Shown here: piece after piece, positions 18,946-25,254 of the stretch
How the letters are laid out: each line of letters begins with the position of its first letter
How positions within the stretch are numbered: the stretch's first letter is position 1
Source: Natronomonas gomsonensis
GTDB lineage: Archaea > Halobacteriota > Halobacteria > Halobacteriales > Haloarculaceae
Assembly (NCBI RefSeq): GCF_024300825.1
Contig: NZ_CP101323.1
Coordinates: 2,170,001-2,234,000 of the forward strand
Direction: 5' to 3'
Length of the DNA: 64,000 nucleotides
Notes under the pieces: generated by a model
Databases searched by the model: none
What the model was told of the DNA's origin: nothing
Seen by the model: only the letters and a program-made list of their open reading frames with translations
Translations under genes and position numbers: made by a program

Positions 18946-20328
18946 TCACGAATCGGTGTCGGTGACGGGGGCGTCCAGTTCCTCTCCGACCCAGACGCCG
19001 TTGCCGTCGGCGTCCAGTCGGACATCGTCGGCGTCGAGATGGCAGGCCGCCCGCTCGCCGTCCGGGTGGCGTCGCTCACAGACGCTGGTGTAGCGCTCGC
19101 GGAGCGTTTCGGCGGCGGCCTCGAAGTCTCCCTCGACGAGGGCCTCGAAGGCCTCCCGAAGGTGTGTTCGCTCCGAAGTGGGCAAATCGACCCCTTCGAG
19201 CAGTCGGTCGAACAGCGCCTCGACAGCGTCGCCGTCGGACGGTTCCAGCCCGTCGAGGCTCACGTCGCGATTCTCGATGCGACGGCGAACGTCCATGACC
19301 GCGCGGTACTGCGATTGCGTGAGGTCGAGGTCGGCCGGCGGAATCACCTTCGGACACCGGGACCGGAACCGACAGCCAGAGGGCGGGTTCCGTGGCGACG
19401 GAACGTCGCCGGTCAGCGGTTCGATGTCGCGGTCGCGCTCGTCGGTCGAGGCCCGTGGAACGCTCTCCAACAGCGCCTCCGTGTAGGGGTGTTGGGGGTT
19501 CGCGAACAGTTCCTCGGTCGGTGCGATTTCGACGATTTCGCCGAGATACATCACCGCCACGCGGTCGCAGATGTGCCGGATGACGCTGAGGTCGTGGCTG
19601 ATGAACAGATACGTGAGGTCGAAATCGTCCTGGAGGTCCTCGAGTAGATTGAGCACCTGTGCCTGAACGCTCACGTCCAGCGCACTGGTGGGTTCGTCCA
19701 ACACGAGGAACTCGGGGTCGAGCGCGAGCGCGCGGGCGATGCCGACGCGCTGGCGTTGCCCGCCGGAGAACTCGTTGGGGTATCGGTCGAGTTGGTCGGC
19801 CGAGAGACCGACCCGCTCCATGAGGTCTGCCGCTCGCTCTCGGCGAAGTTCGTCATCCGGGCGGGCGGTGTCCACGTCGGATTCGGGCCACGGCCAGTCG
19901 TGGATGTCGAGCGGTTGTCGGATGGAGGCACCGACGGTCATTCGGGGGTCGAGACTGGAGAAGGGGTCCTGAAAGACGACGCCGGCCCGACGCCGGAACG
20001 AGAAGAGGTCCCCGCGTTCGGCGAGGTCCTCGCCGTCGTACTCGACGGTGCCGCCCGTGGGGTCGAGCAGTCGCAACAGCGTCTCGCCGGTCGTCGACTT
20101 CCCACAGCCCGATTCACCGACGAGACCGAGCGTTTCGCCCTCTCGGATGTCGAAACTCACGCCGTCGACGGCCCGCACCGGATTCGTCGTATCGCCGAAC
20201 AGTCGGTCCAGTATCGAGTCCTCAGTGTCGAAGTGCTTCTGAAGGTTCCGTACCCGGACGAGCGGGCGGTCGGCCGCCGTCGCATCCGCCCACTCGGACA
20301 CTGGCGTCGGTCCGTGGTCGTCACTCAT
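18946..20328 (-). CDS. Oligopeptide-type ABC transporter ATP-binding protein (DppF-like)
   Basis: The 460-residue ATPase powers uptake by the peptide/nickel-family importer. It shows Walker [18 protein letters not shown]-loop [14 protein letters not shown], signature [15 protein letters not shown], Walker [16 protein letters not shown] and H-loop SHDLSV. The C-terminal oligopeptide-ABC extension has a Cys-containing motif ([10 protein letters not shown]) and a second Cys stretch ([17 protein letters not shown]). An insertion of about 90 residues between these halves, rich in acidic helices, is longer than usual. The start at 20328 overlaps the stop of the companion ATPase gene by 8 bp. Confidence 0.93.
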
Positions 20329-21490
20329 CGAAGTATCCCTCCTCGAGCGCGTCGGCTTGCTCGTAGTCGTGGTCGGCCAGATAACACATCGCCGTGTGCT
20401 CGCCATCGACGGCGAACTCGGGCGGTTTCTCCAGACACTCCTCCATCGCCCTCGGACACCGGTCGGCGAAGTAACACCGGTCATCCATCTCCGAATCGAC
20501 GAGGCTGGGGACGTTTCCGGTAATCGGTTTCAGGCGGTCGGCAGTGCCATCGAGGTCCGGAATCGACCCCAACAAACCCTTCGTGTAGGGGTGGACAGGG
20601 TCGTCGAACACGTCTTCGAGAGTTCCTGTCTCGACCAACTCGCCGGCGTACATCACGCCGACGCGGTCGGCCATCCGGGCGATGACGCCGAGGTTGTGCG
20701 TGATGAGAACCGTCGTCATGCCGACGTCTTCCTGTAGCTCTGCAAGCAGGTCGAGTACCTGCGCCTGTATCGTCACGTCGAGTGCGGTCGTCGGTTCGTC
20801 GGCCACCAGCATCGAGGGTTCGCCGGCCAGCGCCTGTGCAATCATCGCTCGCTGGAGCATGCCGCCGGAGAACTGGTGGGGGTACTCCTCGGCGCGCTCG
20901 GCGGGGTCGGGGATACCGACCATCTCCAGCAGTTCGACCGCCCGGTCGTGGGAGGCGTCGTCGACGAAGTCCCGGGTCGGAAGCAGGCTGTCGCCGACGA
21001 ACTTCGCCAGTCCGTACCCCTGTGTCCGGGAGCGGACCGACCGCGGATTCGCCCGGGCCCGGCGCTGGACCTCGACGGCCTCGGCGATTTGCTCGCCGAC
21101 CGTCAGCGATGGGTTAAAACTGCTCATCGGGTCCTGGAATATCGTCGAGAACTCCGTCCCACGGAGCGCGCGACGCTCGCCGTCGGACAGCGACTGGAGG
21201 TCGACGTAGTCGCCGTCGACGGCCTCCGGCGCGTCGGACTCGATGCGCGCCGCGAGGTCGGGCGAACGGAACCACACCGCCCCGTCGACGATTTCGCCGG
21301 GGCGTTCGACGAGGTCGATGAGCGACAGCGCCGTCACCGACTTCCCGGAACCGGACTCGCCGACGATGCCGAACACTTCCCCTTCCTCGACGCTGAAGGA
21401 GACGTCCTCGACGGCGTTGATTTGGCCCTCCTCGGTGAAGAATCGGGTCGTCAATCCTTCGATTCTGAGTTTCGGCGCCACCTCAGACAC
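20321..21490 (-). CDS. Oligopeptide-type ABC transporter ATP-binding protein (DppD-like)
   Basis: The 389-residue ATPase has Walker [18 protein letters not shown]-loop [14 protein letters not shown], signature [15 protein letters not shown], Walker [16 protein letters not shown] and H-loop THNLGV. The C-terminal peptide-transporter extension contains [15 protein letters not shown]. It starts with GTG at 21490, overlapping the stop of the upstream permease gene. It pairs with the following ATPase as the two nucleotide-binding subunits of one importer. Confidence 0.94.
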
Positions 21491-22541
21491 CCCCCTCCCC
21501 CTCGATGGAGGGGTCGAGTGCGTCCCGAAGCCAGTCGCCGAGAAGGTTCACGCCGATGACTGCGAAGACGATGGCGAGACCCGGCATCGTGGCTATCCAC
21601 CAGTAGGAGCGTTGGTCGCTCCGGCCGTCTGCGATGTCGGCGCCCCACGTCAAGTCGGTGCCGGAGAACCCGAGGAACGACAGCGCGGACTCCAGTAGGA
21701 TGATAGCGGCCACCTGAATCGTCGCCAACACGATGATGGGCGTCAGCGAGTTCGGGAAGACGTGCTGTCTGAGGATGCGCCAGTCGGAGGCGCCGGCCGA
21801 CCGTGCGGCCTTGATGAACTCCTCGGCGCGGACGCTCATCGCCTCGCCGCGGGCGACCCGAGCGAACCACACCCAGTTGACCAAGGCGACGACGAGCGTC
21901 ACCGTCACCGGGAAGGTAAAGGAAGCCGGCATCTCGGCGACGTGTGCGGCACGCGGTATCAACACGTTCGGAACGAGGTCCGAACGGGCGGCGTGGACGA
22001 AGGGGTCCGGAATCGTCGTGGTGTGTACGTCGGAGTCCCTGAACACGCCGACGAGGGCGATGGCGAGGACGAGCGACGGGAACGCCAACATCACGTCGGC
22101 GCCCCGCATCAGCGCGTCGTCGATGCGGTCGCCGAAGTAGCCGGCGACCAGTCCGTACGGAACGCCGATGACCGTCGCGAGCAACGCGCCGAGCAATCCG
22201 ACGAGCAGCGACACGCGGGCACCGTACAGCAACCGCGAGTAGATGTCCTGTCCGAGCGCGTTCGTCCCAAGCGGGAAGGTTTGTCTGGCGGTTATCTCGA
22301 CGGTCTCACTGCCCGACGGCGTGACGCGCTGTTCGGTGTAGGAGAATCCCAATGGCGGCAACTCCGAGAGGTCCTCGGTGCCGCCGGTCCCGATTCGCGT
22401 CGTCGTCGGGTCGTGAAGCGCGAGAAACGGCGCGAACGTCGCCACGAGGAACAGCAGTAACACGAGCACGACGCCGAGTTGTGCGAGTCGGTTCTGCTTG
22501 AACTCCCGTCGGAGGCTCCGTTTGACGCGTTCGGATATCAT
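21483..22541 (-). CDS. ABC transporter permease (DppC-like)
   Basis: The 352-residue membrane protein has the DppC N-terminal helix (VKRSLRREFKQNRLAQLGV), a long extracytoplasmic loop, the motif FPLGTNALGQDIYSRLLYGA, and the EAA coupling loop EFIKAARSAGASDWRIL. The start at 22541 overlaps the stop of the partner permease by ATGA, which rules out the much longer upstream frame. It forms the membrane channel together with the DppB-like subunit. Confidence 0.93.
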   Translation of the reverse strand: MISERVKRSLRREFKQNRLAQLGVVLVLLLFLVATFAPFLALHDPTTTRIGTGGTEDLSELPPLGFSYTEQRVTPSGSETVEITARQTFPLGTNALGQDIYSRLLYGARVSLLVGLLGALLATVIGVPYGLVAGYFGDRIDDALMRGADVMLAFPSLVLAIALVGVFRDSDVHTTTIPDPFVHAARSDLVPNVLIPRAAHVAEMPASFTFPVTVTLVVALVNWVWFARVARGEAMSVRAEEFIKAARSAGASDWRILRQHVFPNSLTPIIVLATIQVAAIILLESALSFLGFSGTDLTWGADIADGRSDQRSYWWIATMPGLAIVFAVIGVNLLGDWLRDALDPSIEGEGGV

Positions 22542-23524
22542 TCTGCGGTCACCCTCGGGTCGAGGTAGGCGTACAGCGAGTCGACGACGATGTTTATGAG
22601 GACGAATCCGACGCCGATGACGATGATGGTCCCCTGAATCGACGTCCAATCGCGGTTGTTGATGGAGGTGATGAGAAAGCGGCCGAGGCCGGGCCAGGCG
22701 AACACTGTCTCGGTGATGACGGCGCCGCCGATGAGCGTCCCCAGTTGGAGACCGAGGACGGTGACGATGGGGATGAGCGTGTTCCGGAGGACGTGTTTGT
22801 ACAGGGTGAGCGTCTCGGGCAGGCCTTTGGCGCGACACGCCGTCACGTACGACTGCCCGAGTTCCTCCAGCATGCCGCTCCGAGTGAGTCGCGTGATGAG
22901 CGCGGTGAAGTACGTCCCCAGCGTGATGGCCGGCAGGACCAGTTGGGCGGCCCACTGCCCGAGTTCGGAAACCGAGCCGTTCGACAGCGCGAACAGCGCC
23001 GTCTGGAGACCCATCTGTCGACCCGTCGTCGGGATGACATCGACGTGGACGCCGACGAAGATGATGAGCATGACGCCGAGCCAGAAGTTCGGCGTCGAGA
23101 TGCCGACAAGCGAGAACAGCGTTGCGCCGTAGTCGACGGGTTCGCGGCGGCGGCGGGCGCTGACGACGCCGAGCGGGATGGCGAGAACGACCGCGACGAC
23201 TGTCGCGGCGACGGCGAGTTCGATGGTCGCGGGCAGTCGCGACGCGACGAGGCCAGCAACTTCACGACCGCTGGACATCGATTCGCCGAAGTCCAGCACC
23301 ACCAGGTCGGTGATGTAGTCGTAGTACTGGACGTACAGAGGTTGGTCGAGGCCGAGGTTTTCACGGAGGCGCCGACGCACCTCCGGACCCGCATCGGGCG
23401 GCAACAGCGTCGCCGTCGGGTTCCCGGGGGTGAGATAGCGCAGGAAGAAAACGACCGTCACGACCCCCCACGTGACGACGACTCCCTGAAGGAGGCGCTT
23501 TATGAGGAACTTTGCGAGACCCAT
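22538..23524 (-). CDS. ABC transporter permease (DppB-like)
   Basis: The 328-residue protein begins MGLAKFLIKRLLQGVVVTWG and carries typical DppB features: LRYLTPGNPT, GLDQPLYVQYYDYI, LGVMLIIFVGVH and the coupling loop QSYVTACRAKGLPETLTL. About six membrane helices are visible. It lies 88 bp downstream of the binding-protein gene and overlaps the next permease by 4 bp. Confidence 0.94.
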   Translation of the reverse strand: MGLAKFLIKRLLQGVVVTWGVVTVVFFLRYLTPGNPTATLLPPDAGPEVRRRLRENLGLDQPLYVQYYDYITDLVVLDFGESMSSGREVAGLVASRLPATIELAVAATVVAVVLAIPLGVVSARRRREPVDYGATLFSLVGISTPNFWLGVMLIIFVGVHVDVIPTTGRQMGLQTALFALSNGSVSELGQWAAQLVLPAITLGTYFTALITRLTRSGMLEELGQSYVTACRAKGLPETLTLYKHVLRNTLIPIVTVLGLQLGTLIGGAVITETVFAWPGLGRFLITSINNRDWTSIQGTIIVIGVGFVLINIVVDSLYAYLDPRVTAE

Positions 23525-23611
23525 TTCTACCGCAATTCTTGCCGGCGGGTTACAAAAAACCGCCGTTATTCGACGATTCGGTGGCCGGGAACGGTACGGT
23601 GCCGTCCGCCG

Positions 23612-25231
23612 TTACTCGGGGATGGTCCGTGCCTGCTGGAGCAACTCGGCCAGTTCCTCGTTGTTAAAGTGCTGGAAGGCGCCCTCGGTGAACCACGGCG
23701 ACATCGCGTAGTCGCCGTCGAGTGTCGGGTTCCCCCAGCCGATGAGGAAGAACGCCGGCGATTCCGACTGCTCGGCGAGGAGTTCGTTGACGAGTTCGCC
23801 GAAGTCACGCCGGTTGGCGGTGCAGGTGACGTTCTCCAGTTCGTTAATCTGGTTCGCCGCAGCCTCGGCGACGTCGGCATCTCGCAGGTATCGACCGACG
23901 GGCGTGTGAAGTTCGATTTCGATGCCCGCGTGGCCGCTCTCCTCGACGAGTGCCTCGGCACGCTCGGGGTCGTACGGATAGGGGTCGATGTCGGGGTTGT
24001 GACCGTTGTGGCCGGGCAACGTCGGTTGGCTCGTCTGGTTGCCGAACTCGTTGAGGATGCTGTCGATGATGGACTGGACGTCGACAGCGAAGTTCATCGC
24101 CTGCCGGAACTCCTGGCTATCGAACGGTTCGGCGACATCGTTCATGACGAGGAAGATGTTCCGCGTCGAGGGTACGTCGTCGTAGCCGACGCCCTCGGCA
24201 CCCTCGACGTCGGGAATGTCGCTCGGTCGAACGTTGGTGACGAGGTCGGAGTCGCCGGCGATGAGCGCGTCGACGCGGGGGCCGTTCTCGGGGATGGCGG
24301 TGAACGTGACCGAATTGGGGTCTGCCGCTTCGCCCCAGTAGCCGTCGAACTTCGTGAACGCGACGCGCGTGTCGTTGACGTATTCGTCGAGTTCGTAGGG
24401 ACCGGTGCCGTTGATTTCCGTGGCGATGTCGTTGTCCTCGTTTTCGACCCAACTCCGCTGGAGGACGCGCCCGAAGACGGTCAGGTTCCGGAAGATGGTC
24501 GGCGTAACCGAATCGAGGTCGAGGACGACATCGCCGTCCTCGGCGCGCGCCTCGGCGATGTCACCGATGTTGCCGGCGACTTCGCTTACGTCCGGGTTGT
24601 TCGCCCGATTGATGGAGAAGGCGACGTCCTCGGCCGTCATGTCGTCACCGTTGTGGAACTGCACATCATCACGAATCGTGAGTCTGACCTCCTGTTCGGC
24701 GGTTCGCTCCCAGTCGGAGACGATAAGTGCGATGGGCCGGCCCTCCCGGTCTCGATAGAGGAACGGTTCGTAAGCCTGGACGACGATGTTGTACTGTGGC
24801 GTGCTGTTTTCGCCGGTCGGGTCCAGCGTCTCGAGGAGTTGTCCCTGCGAGATGGTGATTTCGTCTCTGTCCGTCGAGAACTCCTTGACGTTGATGTCCT
24901 CGTCGGGGCGGGCATCCCACTCGATGTCGTCGTTGATGCCGTAGATGCTGAACTGCTGGTGGAGGTACACCCACGGCGCGAGCGCGTTCGCGAGGCCGTT
25001 TGCGTGCTGGAGGACCTCGACGCGGGAGGGGTCCTCCGGCAACTCCTCGTCGTAGGTCCGGAGTTCGGCGTCGGCCCCGTCGGATGGCGTGTCGTCACCG
25101 GACGGCGTTCCATCACCGTTTCCGTTGCCGTTTCCGTTGCCACCACACCCGGCCAACCCTACGCTGGCGGCGGTTGCGGCGGTGGCACCGCTGTACTGGA
25201 GGAACGTTCGTCGGTCGATGTCTCGCGACAT
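23612..25231 (-). CDS. ABC transporter substrate-binding lipoprotein, apparently circularly permuted
   Basis: The 539-residue protein binds the substrate outside the cell for the downstream permease/ATPase genes. It has a twin-arginine lipoprotein signal (IDRRTFLQYSG, lipobox Cys29) and a Gly-Asn linker. Residues about 59-118 (EDPSRVEVLQHANGLAN, APWVYLHQQFSIYG, DIEWDARPDEDI) look like the segment that normally ends family-5 peptide-binding proteins. Only after this does the normal N-terminal lobe begin (residue about 123, then LLETLDPTG, DDVQFHNGDDMTAEDVAFSI). The protein then stops right after ELLQQARTIPE, exactly where that segment would normally follow. The start at 25231 is supported by a TATA element 24-31 nt upstream; the ATG at 25243 lies too close to it. 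Confidence 0.9.
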   Translation of the reverse strand: MSRDIDRRTFLQYSGATAATAASVGLAGCGGNGNGNGNGDGTPSGDDTPSDGADAELRTYDEELPEDPSRVEVLQHANGLANALAPWVYLHQQFSIYGINDDIEWDARPDEDINVKEFSTDRDEITISQGQLLETLDPTGENSTPQYNIVVQAYEPFLYRDREGRPIALIVSDWERTAEQEVRLTIRDDVQFHNGDDMTAEDVAFSINRANNPDVSEVAGNIGDIAEARAEDGDVVLDLDSVTPTIFRNLTVFGRVLQRSWVENEDNDIATEINGTGPYELDEYVNDTRVAFTKFDGYWGEAADPNSVTFTAIPENGPRVDALIAGDSDLVTNVRPSDIPDVEGAEGVGYDDVPSTRNIFLVMNDVAEPFDSQEFRQAMNFAVDVQSIIDSILNEFGNQTSQPTLPGHNGHNPDIDPYPYDPERAEALVEESGHAGIEIELHTPVGRYLRDADVAEAAANQINELENVTCTANRRDFGELVNELLAEQSESPAFFLIGWGNPTLDGDYAMSPWFTEGAFQHFNNEELAELLQQARTIPE

Positions 25232-25254
25232 ACGGCCATCCATGGGTAAGTATT

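Follow-up and report, generated by a model that had tools for sequence, protein, structure and literature searches.

Circular permutation of a family-5 solute-binding lipoprotein in haloarchaeal Dpp/Opp-type transporters and its apparent parallel origin

Introduction

In solute-binding proteins of the OppA/DppA type, the polypeptide chain returns from the C-lobe to the N-lobe within the last 30 or so residues, and the lipid anchor sits on the N-lobe. The binding proteins of family 5 (cluster C; PF00496) include DppA, OppA, NikA, GsiB/YliB, and AccA. Within the DppABCDF importer of Escherichia coli, a scoop motif of DppB occupies the interlobe cleft of DppA, and each lobe is contacted by one of its helices (PMC12136057). 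A circularly permuted binding protein of another kind, Tp0684 (MglB-2) of Treponema pallidum, has been described as a “Type Ic / Cluster Bc” sugar-binding protein, and its authors proposed that this topology may have evolved in response to membrane anchoring (PMC4990184). A search of the literature, with most subscription journals outside its coverage, found no permuted family-5 or cluster C protein.

The present study concerns a binding protein encoded within 64,000 nucleotides of Natronomonas gomsonensis (NZ_CP101323.1, positions 2,170,001 to 2,234,000), referred to as the window. The protein has its main domain, its operon type, and its predicted fold in common with canonical family-5 proteins, and its best relatives in the PDB are 5u4o, AccA, and YliB. 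It differs from them in that the helix-strand segment that is C-terminal in canonical proteins precedes the main part, and in that its termini are placed in the loop that joins the last two helices of the canonical chain.

Results

Organization of the Gene and the Operon

The open reading frame at 23612..25231 on the minus strand, at the position given by the original prediction, encodes 539 amino acids and is unbroken throughout; an in-frame ATG at 25243, four codons 5' of the annotated start, is also a possible start. Residues 1–29 (25145..25231) form a putative Tat-type signal peptide (RRTFLQYSG) that ends in the lipobox LAGC with Cys29. The Pfam TAT_signal score of 21.2 bits is slightly below the cut-off of 22.7, and R7, R8, G28, and C29 are invariant across 26 permuted homologues (alignment A1). 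As judged from the sequence, the RR motif and the LAGC lipobox would provide the export and the lipid anchor typical of family-5 binding proteins. A low-complexity linker between anchor and fold (residues 30–55, 25067..25144) follows, and residues 1–51 have pLDDT values <50 in the AlphaFold model. The displaced segment (residues 56–119, 24875..25066), identified by homology and by the model, consists of a helix, the long strand APWVYLHQQFSIYG, and then W-DAR-DEDINVKEF, all of which are C-terminal in canonical proteins. At the fusion junction (INVKEFS-TDRD-EITIS, 24860..24890), an old C-terminus, a few-residue linker, and an old mature N-terminus can be recognized by comparison with a canonical relative (L042). 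The main part (residues 120–539, 23615..24874) has the canonical internal order according to PF00496, the PDB matches, and the model, and it ends after helix H525–536 (ELAELLQQARTIPE). The PF00496 match itself covers residues 171–518 (215.4 bits, curated cut-off 32.4), leaving about 20 residues at the C-terminal side.

The stretch from the stop codon of the binding protein to dppB contains no readable trace of a second C-terminal segment. This interval (window 23525–23611) is T-rich, with TTTTTT on the coding strand, and might be a partial terminator that keeps the ratio of binding protein to permease high. Four further minus-strand genes, assigned by Pfam, complete the operon: a dppB-type permease (22538..23524; BPD_transp_1 and its N-terminal domain), a dppC-type permease (21483..22541; BPD_transp_1, OppC_N), and the dppD-type (20321..21490) and dppF-type (18946..20328) ATPases, both with ABC_tran and oligo_HPY. 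The gene thus keeps the company of DppB/C permeases and DppD/F ATPases that is characteristic of family 5. As far as each contig reaches, the order SBP-dppB-dppC-dppD-dppF with the binding protein first, and dppB as its 3' neighbor, is found in nearly all permuted and canonical loci. Within the closely related set, one and the same transporter subunit exists in two alternative forms, canonical and permuted. One locus (L129 in genome G090) contains two entire SBP-dppB-dppC-dppD-dppF operons in tandem, both with canonical binding proteins, which is the kind of tandem duplication from which a permutation could start. Besides the gene in the window, the genome contains only two other SBP_bac_5 genes, at G000:C1:3209588 and G000:C1:1241468.

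The Segment Order Is Permuted

The binding protein at 23612..25231 is a genuine circular permutation. A phmmer comparison with the PDB aligned residues 126–452 with residues 8–351 of AccA and residues 57–106 with residues 428–477, and a match in two crossing stretches is the hallmark of circular permutation. A profile of the 26 permuted homologues (A1) was likewise split into two crossing stretches on PDB chains, whereas a control profile of 26 canonical homologues (A2) ran co-linearly with the same chains to near their ends (e.g., AccA 5–484). The N-terminal segment was also compared with a profile of canonical tails, for which the C-termini of 60 canonical homologues and no permuted protein were used. 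This canonical-tail profile gave 78 bits for the segment of the window protein and 63–88 bits for every one of the 47 distinct permuted proteins; of the shuffled sequences, 420 obtained a score, the highest being 5.9 bits. Canonical order, with the helix-strand segment after the main part, is typical of family 5 and not defining for PF00496; here the segment lies ahead of the main part, at residues 56–119.

The original prediction had been made from the letters of the window and their translations, and its description of the protein holds. The motifs that it quoted for residues 59–118 are found at 25057–24878, the chain stops directly after ELLQQARTIPE, and the frame is continuous as claimed, with the open reading frame reading through and the same order present in other genomes. 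The proposal that the segment is normally C-terminal in family 5 is borne out by the crossing match to AccA, and the suggested comparison of residues 59–118 with family-5 C-termini gave the score on the canonical-tail profile reported above.

Predicted Structure

AlphaFold models were calculated from shallow alignments of 26 sequences and reached moderate confidence for the permuted form (pLDDT 79, pTM 0.67) and a pLDDT of 85 for the canonical form. The two models contain the same secondary-structure elements in rotated order: the canonical model ends with H481–491, H496–513, and then E516–529, and the permuted model begins with H70–84 and E87–100 and ends with H525–536. In the structure prediction called for at the outset, the displaced segment is modelled as the helix and long strand with which the canonical model closes, and not as an unrelated extra domain, the outcome named beforehand as evidence against a permutation; the new chain ends are predicted to fall in the loop linking the last two helices of the canonical fold. 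The top Foldseek matches in the PDB were all family-5 proteins (probability 1.00), in agreement with a two-lobed cluster C fold, as predicted at a pTM of 0.67. Aligned sequentially to 5u4o, its best match in this mode, the permuted model covered 441 columns (TMt 0.69) and the canonical model 492 columns (TMt 0.89); lower figures are expected for the permuted model if one of its pieces falls outside the sequential order, and its lower model quality contributes as well. According to these models, the folded protein is very probably an ordinary two-lobed flytrap with rotated connectivity.

Distribution among Haloarchaea

The survey of haloarchaeal homologues proposed with the original prediction was conducted on 391 genomes sampled evenly across the class, with other archaea and bacteria sampled through a plasmid collection only. 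A near-full-length co-linear match was present in 44 of the 391 genomes, and each match was then read as a locus. Among the 126 candidate open reading frames, 57 (47 distinct) were permuted, 68 were canonical, one was truncated, and none carried the segment at both ends; a combination of the N-terminal segment with the usual C-terminus, named beforehand as evidence against a permutation, was thus absent. All of the 20 further relatives that were added displayed the canonical order (20/20), and an intermediate with both copies of the segment was not found among the 126 reading frames and these relatives. Overall, the permuted order was identified in 47 haloarchaeal genomes and the canonical order in dozens of homologues. 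The permuted protein of Natronomonas sp. CBA1123 is 94–95% identical to the window protein. The canonical neighbors L042 (Natronoglomus mannanivorans) and L016 share the operon and 58–60% identity over the main part with the window protein and differ from it in carrying the homologous segment at the C-terminus.

Alignment coverage was rejected as a sign of permutation. The single suspicious match checked in the plasmid collection (H5, Haematobacter, L140) covered 85% of the permuted query, yet the protein proved to be canonical, and every order call was therefore checked by the position of the segment. Genome G289 contains both a permuted and a diverged canonical copy of the binding protein (loci L093 and L188). 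The permuted gene of the metagenome-assembled genome QS_4_69_225 (L014/L041) displays a frame break around query residue 470 that might be a sequencing error.

The Junctions and the Cut Site

The permuted proteins fall into two main clades: clade A, comprising the window protein and four Natronomonas relatives, and clade B, which is spread over several haloarchaeal families. The junctions in clade A read DEDINVKEFS-TDRD-EITISQ, and the canonical L042 ends with DEDVLVKEISLA (VKEISLA) and starts its fold with EVTITQ. The junctions in clade B read DEFIDAYAI-SPATDSG-DDVV and similar, and canonical relatives end with DERIDAYAISQQ*. Across the permuted proteins, 4–11 residues (median 9) separate the match to the segment profile from the match to the main part. 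At the junctions, the old C-terminus is thus preserved almost entirely and the old start of the fold completely, with a short linker between them, which implies that the two former termini are close neighbors in the folded protein. Both clades are cut at the same inter-helix loop, and their leader sequences are alike (LPEDPTRE in A, LPEPETRE in B).

Number of Origins

Three changes of order are required by a tree based on the main part together with the segment, and three are still required when only its strong branches are considered. A single clade of all permuted sequences was rejected on the binding protein (ΔlnL 302, AU p = 1.5e-7) and on the neighboring permease gene (ΔlnL 151). Clade A nests among the canonical L016, L042, L086, L088, L074, and L085, and with denser canonical sampling (20 more neighbors) clade B (21 rows) remained one group (90/94) nested among canonical lineages. 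Taken at its minimum, this phylogenetic evidence indicates that the permutation arose at least twice independently in haloarchaea, in clade A within Natronomonas and in clade B, at the same cut site. The original prediction was thus correct on the permutation and had not foreseen its recurrence.

A tree of the segment alone recovers clade A and the permuted L015 as one clade (97/92) on the side of the canonical L042, L074, L085, L086, and L088, with clade B across a 98/97 branch. The placement of the A and B segments on opposite sides of this branch argues against the transfer of one permuted front end. However, the AU test on the 51 columns of the segment gave p = 0.15 for one clade of all permuted sequences, and this line of evidence is therefore supporting and not decisive.

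Separate origins for clade A and L015 are not needed: one clade of both was not rejected on the binding protein (p = 0.14) or on the permease (p = 0.39), and the two share junction and leader in addition to their clade in the segment tree. In the trees of both genes, the canonical L016, a sequence from the genus Natronomonas, is placed together with clade A while L015 stays outside, and its position could reflect a third event or a reversal. L016/L120 (genome G009) lies on a 5.7 kb contig, and its N-terminus is cut by the contig end. Clade B was rejected as one clade on the permease (p = 0.00036). Several origins within clade B were considered on this basis and discarded, as the denser tree of the binding protein keeps the clade together. 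The disagreement between the two trees suggests an exchange of operon parts, and an exchange of the permease is the likelier reading.

Discussion

It is highly probable that a Dpp/Opp-type binding protein was permuted in place, with an ordinary fold of rotated connectivity, and that this occurred at least twice with the same cut site. The protein would act as the membrane-anchored substrate-binding subunit of an importer of the type SBP-DppB-DppC-DppD-DppF, a role suggested by its fold, its operon, and its conservation. The former C-terminal 50–60 residues, which comprise the last helix, the long crossover strand, and a closing turn, now stand directly behind the Tat signal, the lipobox, and the linker; a few residues join the old C-terminus to the former start of the fold, and the chain stops within the short loop that separates the last two helices. 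Capture of the ligand (probably a peptide or a similar solute) and docking on DppB and DppC most likely proceed as in canonical relatives. Circular permutations can arise by duplication and fusion. A tandem duplication and in-frame fusion of the binding-protein gene, followed by loss of the main part of the first copy and the tail of the second, is the likely route here.

Alternative explanations differ in which part of this account they replace. An assembly or frameshift artefact has nothing in its favor; the frame break in L014/L041 is local to that homologue, and with the same order in independently sequenced genomes such as that of Natronomonas sp. CBA1123 its probability is negligible. 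It is also scarcely credible that the segment is an unrelated extra N-terminal domain in a protein whose C-terminus was simply lost by truncation or decay: the missing C-terminus is all that speaks for it, against a segment that scores 78 bits compared with 5.9 for the best shuffled sequence, carries invariant positions in 26 homologues, matches the canonical end in secondary structure, and stands in frames that are intact in nearly all of 47 genomes.

A single ancestral permutation followed by many reversions to the canonical order would account for the common cut site and the similar leaders of clades A and B. We regard it as highly improbable, because monophyly of all permuted proteins is rejected on protein and permease and, with A and B each nested among canonical lineages, at least about six reversions would be required. 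The permuted front end (signal and segment) might alternatively have originated once and moved by recombination into a canonical gene of the other clade, which then lost its own tail. The shared cut position and the failure of the segment alone to reject one clade (p = 0.15) are compatible with such a transfer. It is nevertheless very unlikely, since outside A and L015 the segments of clade A are mostly closest to the canonical tails of their own relatives (e.g., L042 and L088, 58–62% identity) and lie on the A side of the 98/97 branch. At least two independent permutations remain the preferred explanation.

Given that the canonical anchor is on the N-lobe and that the new N-terminus starts a helix of the C-lobe, the permutation would shift the tether to the other lobe, and we infer that the lipid anchor now holds the C-lobe; a re-orientation through the anchor had also been considered in the original prediction. 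As DppB contacts both lobes of DppA (PMC12136057), both contribute to the docking face, which the permutation does not necessarily alter. We tentatively suggest that the permutation might be adaptive and repeatedly selected, with the movement of the anchor from the N-lobe to the C-lobe altering how the protein seats on, or cycles with, DppB/DppC in haloarchaea; a neutral re-wiring, for which neighboring termini and a flexible loop between the helices would have left room, is just as possible.

Most known natural circular permutations separate distantly related proteins. The permuted and canonical versions described here belong to the same operon and are about 60–67% identical over the main part, and the switch from one to the other took place at least twice, each time at the same loop. 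Such close pairs allow paired tests of why the chain was re-wired, whether the choice of the anchored lobe matters for ABC import, and which route was taken at the gene level, and the recurrence of the rearrangement opens the question of why proteins repeatedly re-wire their chain without a change of fold. Permuted binding proteins are missed by automated annotation, as the Pfam model spans only the middle of the protein and flags nothing odd.

Naturally permuted binding proteins were already known from Tp0684 and its relatives, and the parallel origin is the surprising part of the present case. Like the window protein, Tp0684 is a lipid-anchored binding protein of an ABC transporter whose chain is naturally permuted (PMC4990184). 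The two differ in class, Tp0684 being a Type I, cluster B protein and the window protein belonging to cluster C, and in direction: N-terminal strands were moved to the C-terminus in Tp0684, together with a large insertion, whereas the C-terminus was moved to the N-terminus in the window protein. Accordingly, neither the Type I sugar-binding fold nor the relocated N-terminal strands that characterize Cluster Bc are found in the window protein. Tp0684 represents one group of homologues in bacteria, in contrast to the two apparently separate origins of the window type in haloarchaea. By analogy, two origins in lipid-anchored archaeal proteins may be counted as further cases for the anchoring idea put forward for Tp0684, without proving it, and if the permutation is adaptive, two origins with the same cut point would constitute a natural replicate test of that hypothesis.
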